Assembly (NCBI RefSeq): GCF_900048895.1
Contig: NZ_LT160640.1
Coordinates: 1,318,758 to 1,382,757 of the forward strand
Direction of reading: 5' to 3'
Length of the DNA stretch: 64,000 nt
Source of the DNA: Neglectibacter timonensis
GTDB taxonomy: Bacteria; Bacillota; Clostridia; Oscillospirales; Acutalibacteraceae
The notes beneath the pieces were generated by a model that did not search any database, was not told the DNA's origin, and worked only from the letters and a program-made list of their open reading frames with translations. The number at the start of each line of letters is the position of its first letter. Within the stretch, counting starts at the first letter, position 1. Both the position numbers and the translations under genes were made by a program. Positions 32,597 to 37,839 of the stretch are shown in pieces.

Positions 32597-35500
32597 TCAT
32601 TCTGTGATAAACTTTTCACAGAAACGCATCATAATCTGCGCCACTTCCGCACGGGTGGCGGTGCCGCCCGGGGCCAGCGTGTTGTTTTCGCGGCCATAGA
32701 TCATGCCTGCGCCAACGGCCCACTTCATATCGCCGACTGCCCAGCTGGAGGTCTTCCCGCCGTCCCGGAAGCTGTCCAGAGTGGCGGTGGCGCTCACATC
32801 ATATGCCTTATATGAGGCATAGCGGTGCAGAATGGCGGCCATTTCCTCGCGGGTGACCGGATCCTCGGGATTGAACTTTCCGTCAAAGCCGCCCACAATC
32901 TTGTTGGCAGCCGCCCAGTTTACAGGCTTGGCATAGTATTCCGTAGCCTTCACGTCGGAGAAATCCGCTACCGTATCCACAGCGGGCTCACCCTCCAGAC
33001 GGTGCAGCACCGTGACCAGCATGCCGCGGGTCATGGTATCTTCCGGGCTGAACTTGTCTGCAGCTGTGCCGCCGAACAGTTTCTTCTGGTTCGTGTACTT
33101 CACAGCGTCATAGAACCAGTCCTTCTCCTTCACATCCTTAAAGGGGTTGACCCATTCTTCCGGCTCTTCCCCGCCGCCTCCACCACCGCCGTTGTAGGTG
33201 AAGGTGTACTGGCCGTCAATGCCGTTACTTTCCCCAGCCGTAGTGTTAGCGCCGGGCGTGATGGTATATGTGATATTCCCTGCCGCCTCTACCTTGAAGG
33301 AAACCGTACGGCTGACTGTGGCAGTCTCATCAGACTCCAAAACAGTAATTGTCTCGCCGTTCTGAACAGCGTCTACCGCATCCTGCAGAGAGGTATAACC
33401 GATTTCCCCGATTTTCGCTGCAGGCGCTTCACTTGTAAGGGTGAATTCGCTGAAGCCGTGAGGGTTCGTAAAGGTGAGTACGTTGTTATCTACCGTTCCG
33501 GTATAGACATAGGTGCGACCATTCTTTATGTGGCGGACATAGAGCGTAGTGCTGCCCTGCGTTACAAAACCCGTTGGCAGGGGAATCGTGACCGTAACCG
33601 CCTCTTTCACTTTCAGTTCCCCAGACGCCCCCTGGATTTCCACAGCATTGACTTGGGTATTGTCTTCATTTTTTAGGACAATCTCGTCATCATTTTCAAG
33701 GTTTGCCGTTGTTGCCACTGTACGGTACATCGGCGTAATGTCCAGGGTCAGGGTCTTTGCACTGTTAGTATCATCAACTTTTACATCTGTGATCTTGATG
33801 TCCATATAGGGCTGGACTACAATCTTCACGTCATCTACATTGATATTCTCTTTTTCGGTAGCCTCTTTCAGTGCCTCCAAAGAGTCCTCTGCCTTATGGG
33901 TGTTGTTGTTAGCCTCTAATTTAGCTGCGGCTTCGATACCTGCGCCTTTGATAGCGGGAGGAGTGCTAGTGCCGCTGCCACCTTCGGTGGTTCCTTGCAG
34001 CGCCTTGGTGACATTTTCGACAAGAGTTTTCTCCTCTGCCTTTAATTTATCGTCTGAAACTGTTGTGTCCACTGCAGGCGGTGCAGGCGGCGCTACCTCT
34101 GCAGGGGTCTCTCCCTTTTTGCCGACCATAAAGGCGTAGCCCGCCTTATCGCTGGCAATAGCTGCCCAGTCAGCAGCGACATAGGGACTGGGATCGCTGG
34201 TAAAATAGCCGCCTTCAATAAACTTCGTCTTATTATCGGACAAGACAGCGCCCTCAGCGCCGGAAAAATTGCCGCCGGAAATTTTCAAAGAGTCAATATA
34301 GGCTCCATCCGTTGTATGGTCTCTAACATCATTCAGATTGTACTCATCAACAGCATAATAAGAAGCGCTCTTGAGCGTACCACCCTGAATATCGATGTTC
34401 ATATGTCCATAGTACCCACTAGTCGCATCCTGGTTTCCCTTGGAGACAACCGCTAGCGCTGTGCCGAAATTGTAGTTGCCGTCGCCGGTTTGCTTATACA
34501 TCCTTTTTCCTTCACCCATATAGGTGGACTCAATCGTACCACCTTTTATGGTCAGGTTACCGGAATCAATTTCAATGCCTGCCCAGCCCTTTACGACGGC
34601 GTCACCGGAAATGGTGGTATCCGTCTGACCCGGCAGATAAATAGCGCAATCCTGCTCGCTGATAATTTCGCCGCCGGTTATATTCAGCGTCACACGGCCA
34701 AAGTTTTCTGTTGCGTTACGTGTGCCGTTTGTGGCAATAGCAAAATTGCCGTCTGTATCGCCGTTTTTATAAGTATTGATAATCTTGCCGCCCTCGATGT
34801 TCACAATGGCACCGTAACCGAACACAGCAATATTTTCCATGGAACTGCTGGTGATTACACCGCTTTTGACAGTTAGGCGTGATGCAACAGGATCACCTGT
34901 TACACTAGTATTTCCCCAAATACCAATACGAGCGTCTTGGGTCATCGCAATCGCACCGTTTCCGTCAATGGTCAAACCACCGGCTTCGATAATCTGGATA
35001 GCTTTAGTAGCATTGACAGTTTTCCCGTTCAGGTCAAGCACAACCGCTTTTCCTGTGATCGTGATGGTTTCATCAACAGCTGCGTCCTTCAACACCTTCA
35101 CTGTTTCGCCATTCTGCGCTGCGTTAACGGCATCCGCCAATGACTTATAGTAGTTGCTTCCAGCCTGTGCAACGGCATTCTCCGCACCGAGAGACACCGT
35201 GAAGCTATCCCCTGTCCCTGTGCAGATGTAGCCTTCTGCCACATATTGGCTCACGTCCGAAGCAAAAGAACCTCCGGAAATAGTAAGATTGGCAGGCGTG
35301 GGTGTAGCTGCGCCACCTCCTGACTGTGTCCCGTTTGCCACACTCCCGTTATAGGTACCGCCACTGATGGTCAGCGTCCCATAACCTCTGCCGTTATCAA
35401 TATTATACACATTTCCGTTGAAGGTTCCGCCGCTGATTGTCATCTTACCCTGGTCAACATTGGGGTCAGCATAGTAATTGCCCACAATGTCAGCGGTTCC

Positions 35501-36226
35501 ATTTTCCGAACCAAATGTGCCTCCTGTAATTTCACACTCATTATAATTCAAAACGACCCACGCAGGTGCCTGAGTAAAATCACCGCCATTGATAGTCAGC
35601 TGGCTGCCGTCATCGTTTTTGATTAGAGAAGAGGTGCTATCAACAGTACCTTCAGCATCGTTTGTAAAATTCAGACCGTTGATGGTCATAACAGCAGTGT
35701 CACTACTCCCGCTGGGATAGCTATACCAGCCGTTATGTACAACAGAGCTCGAGGTGCTTTTACCAATAACATTGATACCAGCGCCGACCTGTTCACCGAT
35801 CATCATGGTGCCGACGTTATCGATCAAATACCAAGTACCCTGAGTCCAAGTGCCGTCATAAAGATTGGCAGTCGCCCCAACAGCATTATGAATTGCGCCA
35901 AAGCTCCCGCTGGCAGGCGCAGAAACGCCACCTGCACTGCCGGAGTCGATCACGGTCAGCGTACCATTGTTTGTAATGGTATGGCTGGAACCGCCTGTCA
36001 GTGTATGCCCCACCAAATCCAAAACAATTATTTTGTTTTTCGGAATCGTAATGCTCTCAGTAGTGTCAGCGGCAAGAGAGATTTTCGTTTCCGTGTTCTC
36101 TGCTGCTTCATTAATTTGACTCTGTAATGTAGCACCTTCATCCGCCAACGCCGCCAGAGGTGTCATAGAGAACACCAGGCAAAGCGCTGTCAGTAGGGAC
36201 AAAAGCTTTCTGCATTTTCTTTTCAC
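32597..36226 (-). CDS. Large SLH-domain cell-surface protein, probable beta-helix
   Basis: Encodes 1209 residues. I start at GTG 36226, seven bases after GGAGG; a signal peptide follows (RKLLSLLTALCLVFSM, cut near LAALADE). Residues ~30-750 are built of repeated short strands (patterns such as LTISGGTYNGS, MTISGGTFNGN, LNITGGEIIS), typical of a right-handed parallel beta-helix or autotransporter-like stalk. A middle region and a beta domain (DIKITDVKVDDTNSAKTLTL) follow. Three SLH domains occupy about residues 1025-1209 (NPFKDVKEKDWFYDAV; DFSDVKATEYYAKPVNWA; LDSFRDGGKTSSWAVGDMKW), which bind pyruvylated wall polymer. Probably an adhesin or surface-layer-associated protein. Its upstream region carries a probable invertible promoter. 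Confidence 0.9.
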   Translation of the reverse strand: MKRKCRKLLSLLTALCLVFSMTPLAALADEGATLQSQINEAAENTETKISLAADTTESITIPKNKIIVLDLVGHTLTGGSSHTITNNGTLTVIDSGSAGGVSAPASGSFGAIHNAVGATANLYDGTWTQGTWYLIDNVGTMMIGEQVGAGINVIGKSTSSSVVHNGWYSYPSGSSDTAVMTINGLNFTNDAEGTVDSTSSLIKNDDGSQLTINGGDFTQAPAWVVLNYNECEITGGTFGSENGTADIVGNYYADPNVDQGKMTISGGTFNGNVYNIDNGRGYGTLTISGGTYNGSVANGTQSGGGAATPTPANLTISGGSFASDVSQYVAEGYICTGTGDSFTVSLGAENAVAQAGSNYYKSLADAVNAAQNGETVKVLKDAAVDETITITGKAVVLDLNGKTVNATKAIQIIEAGGLTIDGNGAIAMTQDARIGIWGNTSVTGDPVASRLTVKSGVITSSSMENIAVFGYGAIVNIEGGKIINTYKNGDTDGNFAIATNGTRNATENFGRVTLNITGGEIISEQDCAIYLPGQTDTTISGDAVVKGWAGIEIDSGNLTIKGGTIESTYMGEGKRMYKQTGDGNYNFGTALAVVSKGNQDATSGYYGHMNIDIQGGTLKSASYYAVDEYNLNDVRDHTTDGAYIDSLKISGGNFSGAEGAVLSDNKTKFIEGGYFTSDPSPYVAADWAAIASDKAGYAFMVGKKGETPAEVAPPAPPAVDTTVSDDKLKAEEKTLVENVTKALQGTTEGGSGTSTPPAIKGAGIEAAAKLEANNNTHKAEDSLEALKEATEKENINVDDVKIVVQPYMDIKITDVKVDDTNSAKTLTLDITPMYRTVATTANLENDDEIVLKNEDNTQVNAVEIQGASGELKVKEAVTVTIPLPTGFVTQGSTTLYVRHIKNGRTYVYTGTVDNNVLTFTNPHGFSEFTLTSEAPAAKIGEIGYTSLQDAVDAVQNGETITVLESDETATVSRTVSFKVEAAGNITYTITPGANTTAGESNGIDGQYTFTYNGGGGGGGEEPEEWVNPFKDVKEKDWFYDAVKYTNQKKLFGGTAADKFSPEDTMTRGMLVTVLHRLEGEPAVDTVADFSDVKATEYYAKPVNWAAANKIVGGFDGKFNPEDPVTREEMAAILHRYASYKAYDVSATATLDSFRDGGKTSSWAVGDMKWAVGAGMIYGRENNTLAPGGTATRAEVAQIMMRFCEKFITE

Positions 36227-36349: not shown

Positions 36350-36367
36350 ACATAATTTGCATTATGT
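36350..36367 (+). repeat. Recombination-like site A
   Basis: ACATAATTTGCATTATGT. The core CATAA-N6-TTATG resembles the inner half-sites of Xer/dif-type recombination sites. Same orientation as site B, 74 bases apart; opposite to site C. Confidence 0.8.
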
Positions 36368-36423
36368 GGAGTTTTTACCCCATTGGCATCTCCTCCTTAA
36401 AGGCCCGTTTCAGTTTCATGGCT

Positions 36424-36441
36424 ACATAATTTGCATTATGT
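36424..36441 (+). repeat. Recombination-like site B
   Basis: Exact copy of site A (ACATAATTTGCATTATGT). With the inverted site C at 36674-36691 it bounds a 232-base segment holding a promoter and a terminator. Confidence 0.85.
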
Positions 36442-36506
36442 CATTTATTTTGTGGTGACGGAGGAATATTTTCCCGTAGGGAAGTATAAAAACGTCGCCA
36501 TAAAAC

Positions 36507-36562
36507 AAAAAAAGAAGCGGGAAATAGCACCGGAAGTTTTCTGAAATCTTCCGGTTATTTCC
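36507..36562 (-). terminator. Terminator inside the invertible segment
   Basis: Stem GGAAATA...CCGGAAG (36520-36536) with CTTCCGG...TATTTCC (36548-36562), 14 pairs with small bulges, followed on the minus strand by seven T. In this orientation it stops transcription coming from the recombinase gene before it reaches the SLH gene. Confidence 0.8.
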
Positions 36563-36586
36563 TACTGCACTTTTTGCGTATTGAGC

Positions 36587-36615
36587 TTGAATTTCACCAT
36601 GACAAGGAGTATAAT
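36587..36615 (+). promoter_or_regulatory. Promoter inside the invertible segment
   Basis: TTGAAT (36587-36592), 17 bases, TATAAT (36610-36615). It now reads rightwards, antisense into the end of the recombinase gene, where no plus-strand gene follows for over 1.2 kb. After inversion it would read toward the SLH gene. Confidence 0.75.
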
Positions 36616-36673
36616 GAAAGGGAAAATTACGCGAAATTGTGTTGTTTTCGTAAATCTTCCAAACCCTTTCGCT

Positions 36674-36691
36674 ACATAATGCAAATTATGT
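36674..36691 (-). repeat. Recombination-like site C (inverted)
   Basis: ACATAATGCAAATTATGT on the plus strand, the exact reverse complement of sites A and B. The TAA stop codon of the recombinase gene lies inside it (36686-36688). Confidence 0.85.
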
Positions 36692-37543
36692 GGCGCTGCA
36701 GCGCAGTACCAGGCCGAGACGGTCCAGGCGCTTTTCCTGTTCCTCCCCGCTCTCCATGGTGTAAATACGGGTGGTATTGATGTTGCTGTGCCCCAGCAGG
36801 TCTGCCAGGCGCACCAGGTTCCGTTCCGCCGAATAGAACACGCGGGCGAACAGGTGCCTTAGGTTATGGGGGAAAACCTTGCTCTTTTCCACCCCCGCCT
36901 CCGCGCACAGGGATTTCATCAACGCCCAGATATAGGATCTGCCCAGGGGCAGCCCGTTCCGGCTCAGGAACAGGGGCCCTTTTTTCACGCCCATCCGGCG
37001 GGCGTACTCCATCAGACGCCGGCTCAGTTGCCTGGGCAGGAACACCATCCTCCGCTTCCCTTTGCAGGCCACCTCCGCCCGGCCCAGGCGCGCCGCCTCC
37101 ACCGTGATATATTCCAGCTCGGAAACCCGGATTCCCGTAGAGCATACGGCCTGCAGCAGCAGGCACAGCCTTTCGTCCCCCCGCCTTTCCGCCGCCGTAA
37201 CCAGCCTTCCGTATTCTTCCCGGGTCAGCTCCCGCTCCGGGTCGCGGAACATCCTACGCTGCAGGCGCAGGGGTTTGATCCGGCATTCGCCCCAGCCTGC
37301 AAAGGCGAAAAAGCTGTTGAGCGCCGCCAGCATGGAATTCACGCTGGCCGGGGCATAGTTCTGCACCAGCCATTCTTTATAACGGAGCACCGCCAGTTTA
37401 TCCAGGGTTTTTCCATCCTCCAGAAAACGCTGGAAGGCCCGCAGGTCCCGCAGGTATTTTTCCCTGGTGGCTCCGCTCCGTTCCTCCTCCTGCAGATATG
37501 CTTCAAACCCTTTCAGACAGCGTTGTGTGAGCTCATGTTTCAT
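36686..37543 (-). CDS. Tyrosine recombinase (XerC/D-like), probable invertase
   Basis: Encodes 285 residues. N-terminal SAM-like core-binding domain (residues ~1-95, LTQRCLKGFEAYLQEEERSG) and catalytic domain with the full set: Arg in STGIRVSELE, Lys in CKGKRRMVF, His-x-x-Arg in HNLRHLFA, His in LLGHSNINTT and the nucleophile Tyr in TRIYTMES. The ATG at 37543 gives normal Xer length; GGGAGA lies upstream. Its last codons overlap recombination-like site C and it borders the putative invertible promoter, so it most likely flips that segment. It could instead be the relic of an integrated element, but no other element genes are seen. Confidence 0.88.
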   Translation of the reverse strand: MKHELTQRCLKGFEAYLQEEERSGATREKYLRDLRAFQRFLEDGKTLDKLAVLRYKEWLVQNYAPASVNSMLAALNSFFAFAGWGECRIKPLRLQRRMFRDPERELTREEYGRLVTAAERRGDERLCLLLQAVCSTGIRVSELEYITVEAARLGRAEVACKGKRRMVFLPRQLSRRLMEYARRMGVKKGPLFLSRNGLPLGRSYIWALMKSLCAEAGVEKSKVFPHNLRHLFARVFYSAERNLVRLADLLGHSNINTTRIYTMESGEEQEKRLDRLGLVLRCSAT

Positions 37544-37702
37544 TTTAATAGGAATCTCCCTTCCGCTTTTCCTCTCAGGCGGCCGCCTGGAATTTTCCGA
37601 TGCTTCAGCTCCTGTAATGCTGTTTGGCTTTACAGGAGCTGCGCTGAAAAATTGCGGTCCGCCTGTTTCTTCTCTCCTTCTAGTGTGCTTGCCTTCTGTA
37701 AT

Positions 37703-37745: not shown

Positions 37746-37788
37746 AAAAAAAGACTCCCGAGTTCCTCGCTTTGAGGGACTCGGGAGT
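37746..37788 (-). terminator. Terminator upstream of the recombinase gene
   Basis: ACTCCCGAGT (37754-37763) pairs with ACTCGGGAGT (37779-37788), followed on the minus strand by seven T. No minus-strand gene ends here, so it is an insulator, an attenuator or the end of a small RNA. Confidence 0.7.
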
Positions 37789-37839
37789 TTCTGTTGGGGC
37801 TTGCAAAAGCGGTTCCCAATTATTCCCAGTAGATTTTGC

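Follow-up and report, generated by a model that had tools for sequence, protein, structure and literature searches.

Does a short promoter-bearing segment next to a recombinase gene of Neglectibacter timonensis invert, and would its inversion switch a large surface protein on and off? The question arises from a window of 64,000 nucleotides (the whole stretch of DNA that was analyzed; contig NZ_LT160640.1, positions 1,318,758 to 1,382,757 of the forward strand), in which a sequence-only reading had proposed a promoter that is inverted by the neighboring recombinase. On the evidence of the locus and its relatives, we consider it very likely that this is a self-contained phase-variation cassette, one recombinase serving one switch, in which an invertible promoter controls an SLH surface protein.

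Organization of the N. timonensis locus

Along the + strand, the locus comprises the SLH gene (encoded on the − strand), site A, site B, a 232-bp segment, site C, and the recombinase gene (also on the − strand). Site A (36350-36367, + strand), the outer site on the SLH side, has the form ACATAA-TTTGCA-TTATGT, site B (36424-36441, + strand) repeats it directly 74 bp on from A, and site C (36674-36691, − strand) is an inverted copy. The sequence of A and B is ACATAATTTGCATTATGT, and that of C is the exact reverse complement of ACATAATTTGCATTATGT; the earlier description of three perfect 18-bp sites, two direct and one inverted, with 74 bp between A and B, was therefore correct. The pattern CATAA-N6-TTATG occurs at eight places in the whole 3,671,597-base genome, and across these 3.67 Mb it is combined with the spacer TTTGCA only at sites A, B, and C.

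As in an inverton, the inverted repeats flank a promoter-bearing segment, here the predicted 232-bp invertible segment between B and C (36442-36673). The promoter (TTGAAT-17-TATAAT, 36587-36615, + strand) points to the recombinase and away from the surface gene, as had been claimed, and its −10 end is 58 bp from site C; because of this direction the SLH gene is predicted to be OFF in the assembled orientation. The promoter call, which is weak taken alone (3 promoter-like sites in 1751 bp compared to 1.0 expected), gains weight from the promoter positions across the family that are described below. The terminator said to oppose the recombinase transcript was recovered by folding and by eye as a terminator-like hairpin (about 36507-36565, − strand; −20 kcal/mol) followed by TTCTTTTTTT. 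Two automatic terminator scans did not pick this hairpin, the likely reason being its long, interrupted stem. In the assembled orientation it would stop read-through from the recombinase gene before the SLH gene. No terminator was seen in the fold of the A-B interval (36368-36423), the − strand of which holds a 14-codon ORF (36419-36375) with a ribosome-binding-like AAGGAGGAG stretch.

The target gene (32597-36226, − strand) encodes 1209 aa from a GTG start codon (36226) that is preceded by the ribosome-binding site AAGGAGG; an alternative start, the first in-frame ATG (36337), gives 1246 aa. The protein has three C-terminal SLH stretches according to Pfam (PF00395, E 7.2e-30) and, according to a simple hydrophobicity score, a hydrophobic N terminus that serves as the predicted export signal, and it is assigned on these grounds to the SLH surface proteins.

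The recombinase gene (36686-37543, − strand) encodes a 285-aa protein with a Phage_integrase domain (PF00589, E 3.3e-22) that scores 79.5 bits against a curated cut-off of 27.1, which places it among the tyrosine recombinases. The R-K-H-R-H-Y residues are present, the motifs GIR, KGK, HNLRH, LGH, and IYT were located in the translation, and the R, HxxR, H, and Y align to 4a8e. The scores with the NCBIfam equivalog models for XerC, XerD, and XerA were 131.4, 121.1, and 115.1 bits, all below the cut-offs of 220, 329.6, and 335.15, respectively, and by these models the enzyme is classed as Xer-like and not as a Xer orthologue. The stop codon was rightly said to lie inside the inverted site: it is the TAA in the ACATAA half of site C, so that inversion between identical sites leaves the recombinase protein unchanged. 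The arrangement of the stop codon at the site looks the same in two other loci of the family, L045 and L114. Upstream of the recombinase gene are two strong inverted repeats (37605-37641 and 37747-37795), one of them with a run of T after it on the − strand, and by eye also a 23-codon ORF; this region looks like leader or attenuator control.

Site pairs in the recombinase family

Homologues were sought in 60 relatives and in 200 genomes drawn from the same family. At E 0.001, 58 of the 60 relatives gave matches, many of them only via Xer-like genes at about 30% identity. At E 1e-50, matches were obtained in 37 of the 200 same-family genomes (N. timonensis included) and in 25 of the 158 good-quality ones, and the recombinase family is therefore patchy. 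The fetched stretches provided 85 homologues with at least 40% identity; for 65 of these, the sequence continued for 400 bp or more past the gene. An 18-bp site of the form half-N6-half, accompanied by an inverted copy, was present beyond the gene in 56 of these 65 homologues. Among the control stretches, such a pair turned up in 5 of 325 shuffled ones and 4 of 62 upstream ones. Two of the 56 pairs (L105 and L139), which are GC-rich palindromes and chance-like, were removed. For the 54 pairs that were kept, the start of the first site is at −2 to +266 bp relative to the end of the gene match, the inner segment spans 151-325 bp (median 243), and the partner sites are identical across all 18 bp in 34 cases. 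The other nine of the 65 loci had no inverted site pair in the search range; at one of them, L058, sites are found about 2.8 kb further on.

Site pairs were also present in four of five further records, namely Pusillibacter faecalis, two Subdoligranulum variabile replicons, and Monoglobus pectinilyticus, and the fifth, a phage-labelled contig, had no pair in the stretch scanned. The genome_contigs scan added two matches, one in a Mogibacterium (41%), where a site pair is present, and one in a Flavobacterium (26%). A viral origin was considered and rejected. None of the IMG/VR contigs matched the peptide patterns, and the single exact site match in that collection (L151) is, by estimate, at about the chance level for its size. 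Among phage records the 36 matches were without exception below 60% identity, and the scanned stretch of the top match, an unannotated faecal contig at 48%, contained no site pair.

Five loci (L053, L066, L052, L054, and L057) have a second recombinase gene just downstream of the first, the products of which are 30-33% identical to the N. timonensis recombinase. At L053 and L066 the inverted site pair lies between the two recombinase genes, so one recombinase may control the other.

Spacers and half-sites

The partner sites of the 54 pairs differ by 26 mismatches in total, all of them in the half-sites and none in the 6-bp spacer, where one third would be expected (p 3e-5). The 54 pairs have 40 different spacers between them; the first base is mostly T (43/54) and the last mostly A (47/54). 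This pattern is as would be expected of a strand-exchange region. The spacers of the four N. timonensis cassettes are TTTGCA, CGCACA, TCAACA, and TCGTTA, of which CGCACA belongs to the cassette at C9:94523, and spacers differ within 10 of the 11 genomes that have at least two cassettes in the set; in genome G211, three recombinases that are 91-93% identical to one another are accompanied by three different spacers. These results suggest that the spacers keep cassettes apart. The one exception is G148, where cassettes L146 and L147 have both half-sites and spacer in common and could therefore recombine with each other.

The half-sites of the 54 pairs were ACATAA (34), ACAGAA (6), ACGGAA (5), ACAAAA (3), and others (6). 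Half-site class clusters on the recombinase tree, with 15 changes compared to a shuffled mean of 19.5 and none of 200 shuffles as low; the clustering is not clean, and the N. timonensis recombinase has no firm placement. The 18-bp site of L153 (OY725846.1) is the same as that of N. timonensis although the two recombinases are just 52% identical.

Promoter positions and orientation

Promoter positions were analyzed after the loci had been thinned to clusters below 75% identity, 41 in all. In 40 of these clusters the promoter points toward a site 15-70 bp away from its −10 end, compared to 29% of shuffles; for 21 clusters the distance is 43-51 bp, compared to 4.6% of shuffles. The remaining distances were 17-18, 25-28, 35-38, 41, 58, 67, and 103 bp. 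For the 18 strong promoters that lie outside 43-51 and under 90 bp, agreement with the helical phase of the main peak beat 20,000 random draws, in a test that was post hoc and that used a simple promoter score.

Of the best promoters in 56 segments, 42 face the recombinase and 10 the target, with 4 unclear; this tally includes L105 (unclear) and L139 (toward the target). These orientation calls are fallible, since L110 and L112, whose segments are opposite to each other, were both scored toward the target. Promoters and terminators alike were called by simple scans. Reading from recombinase to target, a terminator-like stretch was called in 31 of 54 segments compared to 17 of 108 shuffles, and reading in the opposite direction in 29 of 54.

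We also considered an antisense latch, by which an OFF-facing promoter would read into its own recombinase gene and silence it. A terminator-like stretch is situated between the OFF-facing promoter and 200 bp into the gene at 25 of 42 loci (weakly at that of N. timonensis), and the latch was therefore rejected as a general mechanism.

Evidence for inversion and alternative explanations

A search for flipped segments in relatives, which the sequence-only reading had advised, succeeded for one orthologous pair of the family and gave the same orientation for the rest of the close pairs. In two different genomes, the recombinases of L110 and L112 are 87% identical, their targets are 85% identical over 1326 aa, and the segments between the sites are 86% identical and lie in opposite orientation; both orientations are thus seen, between species, at one family locus. 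The six other closest pairs (L106/L107, L100/L103, L113/L125, L146/L147, L131/L136, and L045/L121) are in the same orientation. Contig ends are found within 400 bp of the 3′ end of the recombinase gene at 20 of 84 loci, but within that distance of its 5′ end at only 3 of the 84 (p 5e-4), an excess such as mixed orientations would cause. The counts were 15 and 3 when only full-length gene ends were considered (p 0.008) and 14 and 3 of 77 when genome G042 was omitted (p 0.013). Some of these contig ends, above all in G042, may reflect repeated recombinase copies.

The anatomy of the locus, the uniqueness of its sites, their recurrence in the family (56 of 65 homologues with a site pair), the identity of the spacers, the positions of the promoters, and the one flipped orthologous locus (L110/L112) together support the cassette reading and, with it, the original proposal of an invertible promoter worked by the neighboring recombinase. 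The recombinase (36686-37543) would bind the ACATAA/TTATGT half-sites of C plus those of B or A, strands would be exchanged inside the identical 6-bp TTTGCA spacer, and a stretch of 232 bp (B × C) or 306 bp (A × C) would be inverted. After inversion the TTGAAT-17-TATAAT promoter would drive the SLH surface-protein gene; in the assembled orientation, in which the promoter faces away and the hairpin would block recombinase read-through, the gene would be OFF. The outcome would most likely be on/off switching of the large surface protein at random. This mechanism is well supported for the family, and for N. timonensis we infer that the recombinase acts on these sites, that the strain flips, and that flipping switches the SLH gene.

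It is highly improbable that the palindromes are instead transcription-factor operators or hairpins that undergo no inversion and have the recombinase as a chance neighbor. Each site does have a perfect, operator-like palindrome in its outer 7 bp, and three copies are close to one promoter. However, the inner bases are non-palindromic and vary between loci (40 spacers in 54) but not between the partner sites of any of the 54 loci, the site pair goes with the 3′ end of the recombinase gene, and the segment of one orthologous locus is flipped. We give equally little credence to the sites being dif-like targets of the housekeeping XerC/XerD, perhaps marking an integrated mobile element, with the local recombinase dispensable. 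The CATAA-N6-TTATG core does resemble dif, and a pair of Xer-like genes is present elsewhere in the N. timonensis genome (C14:634-636 kb), but the sites are inverted, short-spaced, and different from cassette to cassette, other half-site types (ACGGAA, ACAAAA, and ACAAT) occur beside diverged recombinases, and no element bounded by the sites was seen in the stretch read.

The switch might also be silent, with sites and gene intact yet in practice locked OFF in this species, as the large share of promoters facing the recombinase in the tally given above would allow. The three perfect sites and the intact recombinase with its catalytic residues argue against this explanation, since in a dead switch the sites should no longer be kept identical, and we regard it as unlikely. 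An active cassette that controls the SLH protein is the reading that we prefer.

Three-site arrays

The third site at the N. timonensis locus had been thought unusual, a view that the family does not bear out. At least two direct sites plus an inverted one are present at 6 of the 54 loci (N. timonensis, L045 with three direct sites, L114, L065, L067, and L137), and multi-site layouts are found also at L058, L153, and, with a 16/18 copy, L152. The layout is thus a recurrent variant, which could give more than two states. By eye, the extra site arises from a 63-bp tandem duplication in L065 and from a repeat bearing a promoter-like copy in L067, and the extra interval of L114 has a promoter-like sequence of its own; the extra intervals of L153 and L058 contain a terminator-like hairpin. 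The doubled site is on the target side at the N. timonensis locus, L137, and L153 and on the recombinase side at L045, L114, L065, L067, and L152. Outer inversion would turn the first layout into the second, and vice versa.

Three-site arrays could conceivably be two-bit switches, with private spacers preventing cross-reaction among the several per genome, although we hold this idea only tentatively and think it rather doubtful. If it is true, one recombinase would flip the promoter module and would separately carry the A-B module from the target side to the recombinase side. At L153 (Subdoligranulum), the promoter is already directed toward the target, at 48 bp, and the terminator-like hairpin is in the A-B interval; the ON state would then need both modules to be correctly placed, as in an AND gate. 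The N. timonensis locus would have three states: OFF, ON with leader, and ON without leader. Literature searches of open-licence papers, aimed at three-site promoter arrays in clostridial invertons and at private spacers in natural promoter switches, found nothing on either. The target of L153 reads, by eye, like a chain-length protein.

Relation to known switches

In the fimS switch of Escherichia coli, the promoter is on a 314-bp invertible element worked by the tyrosine recombinases fimB and fimE; it differs from the present cassettes in its two recombinases, its enteric accessory proteins, and its sites. The PhaseFinder paper reportedly appeared in Science in 2019. Clostridial invertons tied to tyrosine recombinases are already known from Jin et al. 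2025, the available part of which describes an inverton group 139 with 32 of 33 members from Clostridia, nearly all with a nearby recombinase of tyrosine invertase group 35, and with orientation shifts in culture for Clostridium sp. D5 and Intestinimonas butyriciproducens (PMC11892184). The segments of that group are likewise short, about 205 and 227 bp as calculated from the coordinates of two examples (PMC11892184). Judged by its description, group 139 may be the same family as the present one or a sister to it. The most striking features of the present family are its private spacers, its phased promoters, and the recurrence of three-site arrays, none of which was met in the available part of the group 139 account (PMC11892184).

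The Clostridioides precedent put forward for this locus holds in part. According to the available portions of the C. difficile reports, cwpV has inverted repeats, a 195-bp segment, the RecV tyrosine recombinase, and a cell-wall protein as its target (PMC2784873, PMC5903667), so that recombinase-driven inversion and a cell-wall target are indeed found there, and the flagellar switches resemble the present cassettes in having inverted repeats and a tyrosine recombinase. The cwpV promoter, however, is outside the inverted segment, and a terminator model is given for its switching (PMC2784873); RecV, unlike the recombinases of the present cassettes, is encoded away from cwpV and works on more than one switch (PMC2784873, PMC5903667). 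In the Vpma system of Mycoplasma agalactiae, as far as the available text goes, the Xer-type recombinase Xer1 also varies surface proteins but does so by shuffling a lipoprotein gene family with a single enzyme (PMC5634654).

Engineered orthogonal LoxPsym sites, described in the accessible part of that report as variants for one tyrosine recombinase that do not cross-react, offer a parallel to the proposed private spacers, with the difference that they are man-made and serve the single recombinase Cre (PMC10850332). Cassettes of the G211 type would be a natural collection of recombinase-site pairs that are possibly orthogonal, and spacer identity provides a testable rule for which switches can cross-talk. 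The results point to several coin-flip promoters in bacteria of this order, independent of one another and each served by a recombinase and a spacer of its own.

Targets across the family

Targets were chosen by a simple ORF rule that yielded one at 50 of the 54 loci, and 28 of the 50 picks have a hydrophobic N terminus. The Pfam scan covered 49 of them, the 91-aa pick of L065 being left out, and detected SLH in 4, which are the four of N. timonensis. That genome has four cassettes, each ahead of an SLH gene, and at least four of its SLH surface proteins would be phase-variable; its 110 SLH domain matches are at many more loci than the four switches. The same succession of recombinase, site pair, and SLH gene is seen on the Pusillibacter faecalis plasmid pMM59_01, where the SLH gene is about 0.4 kb past the second site. 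The same design is present in many relatives ahead of other genes, including those for leucine-rich and InlB-like repeat proteins, collagen-like proteins, Wzz, a signal peptidase-like protein, and GGDEF/HD regulators.

The recombinases of L127 and L112 are 94.6% identical, yet they are ahead of unlike genes, a metallophosphoesterase and a 1318-aa protein with a hydrophobic N terminus, respectively, so recombinases or targets may be exchanged. At L058 (11460-12170), two divergent genes flank the sites, with starts that are near-perfect inverted copies of each other over 120 bp, and the promoter may therefore choose between two surface proteins. On contig C11 of N. timonensis, SLH genes on opposite strands face each other at 28-29 kb and 63-64 kb, the + strand copies have identical domain scores, and integrase matches that look split are found at 86-88 kb; this region is possibly another rearranging surface locus.
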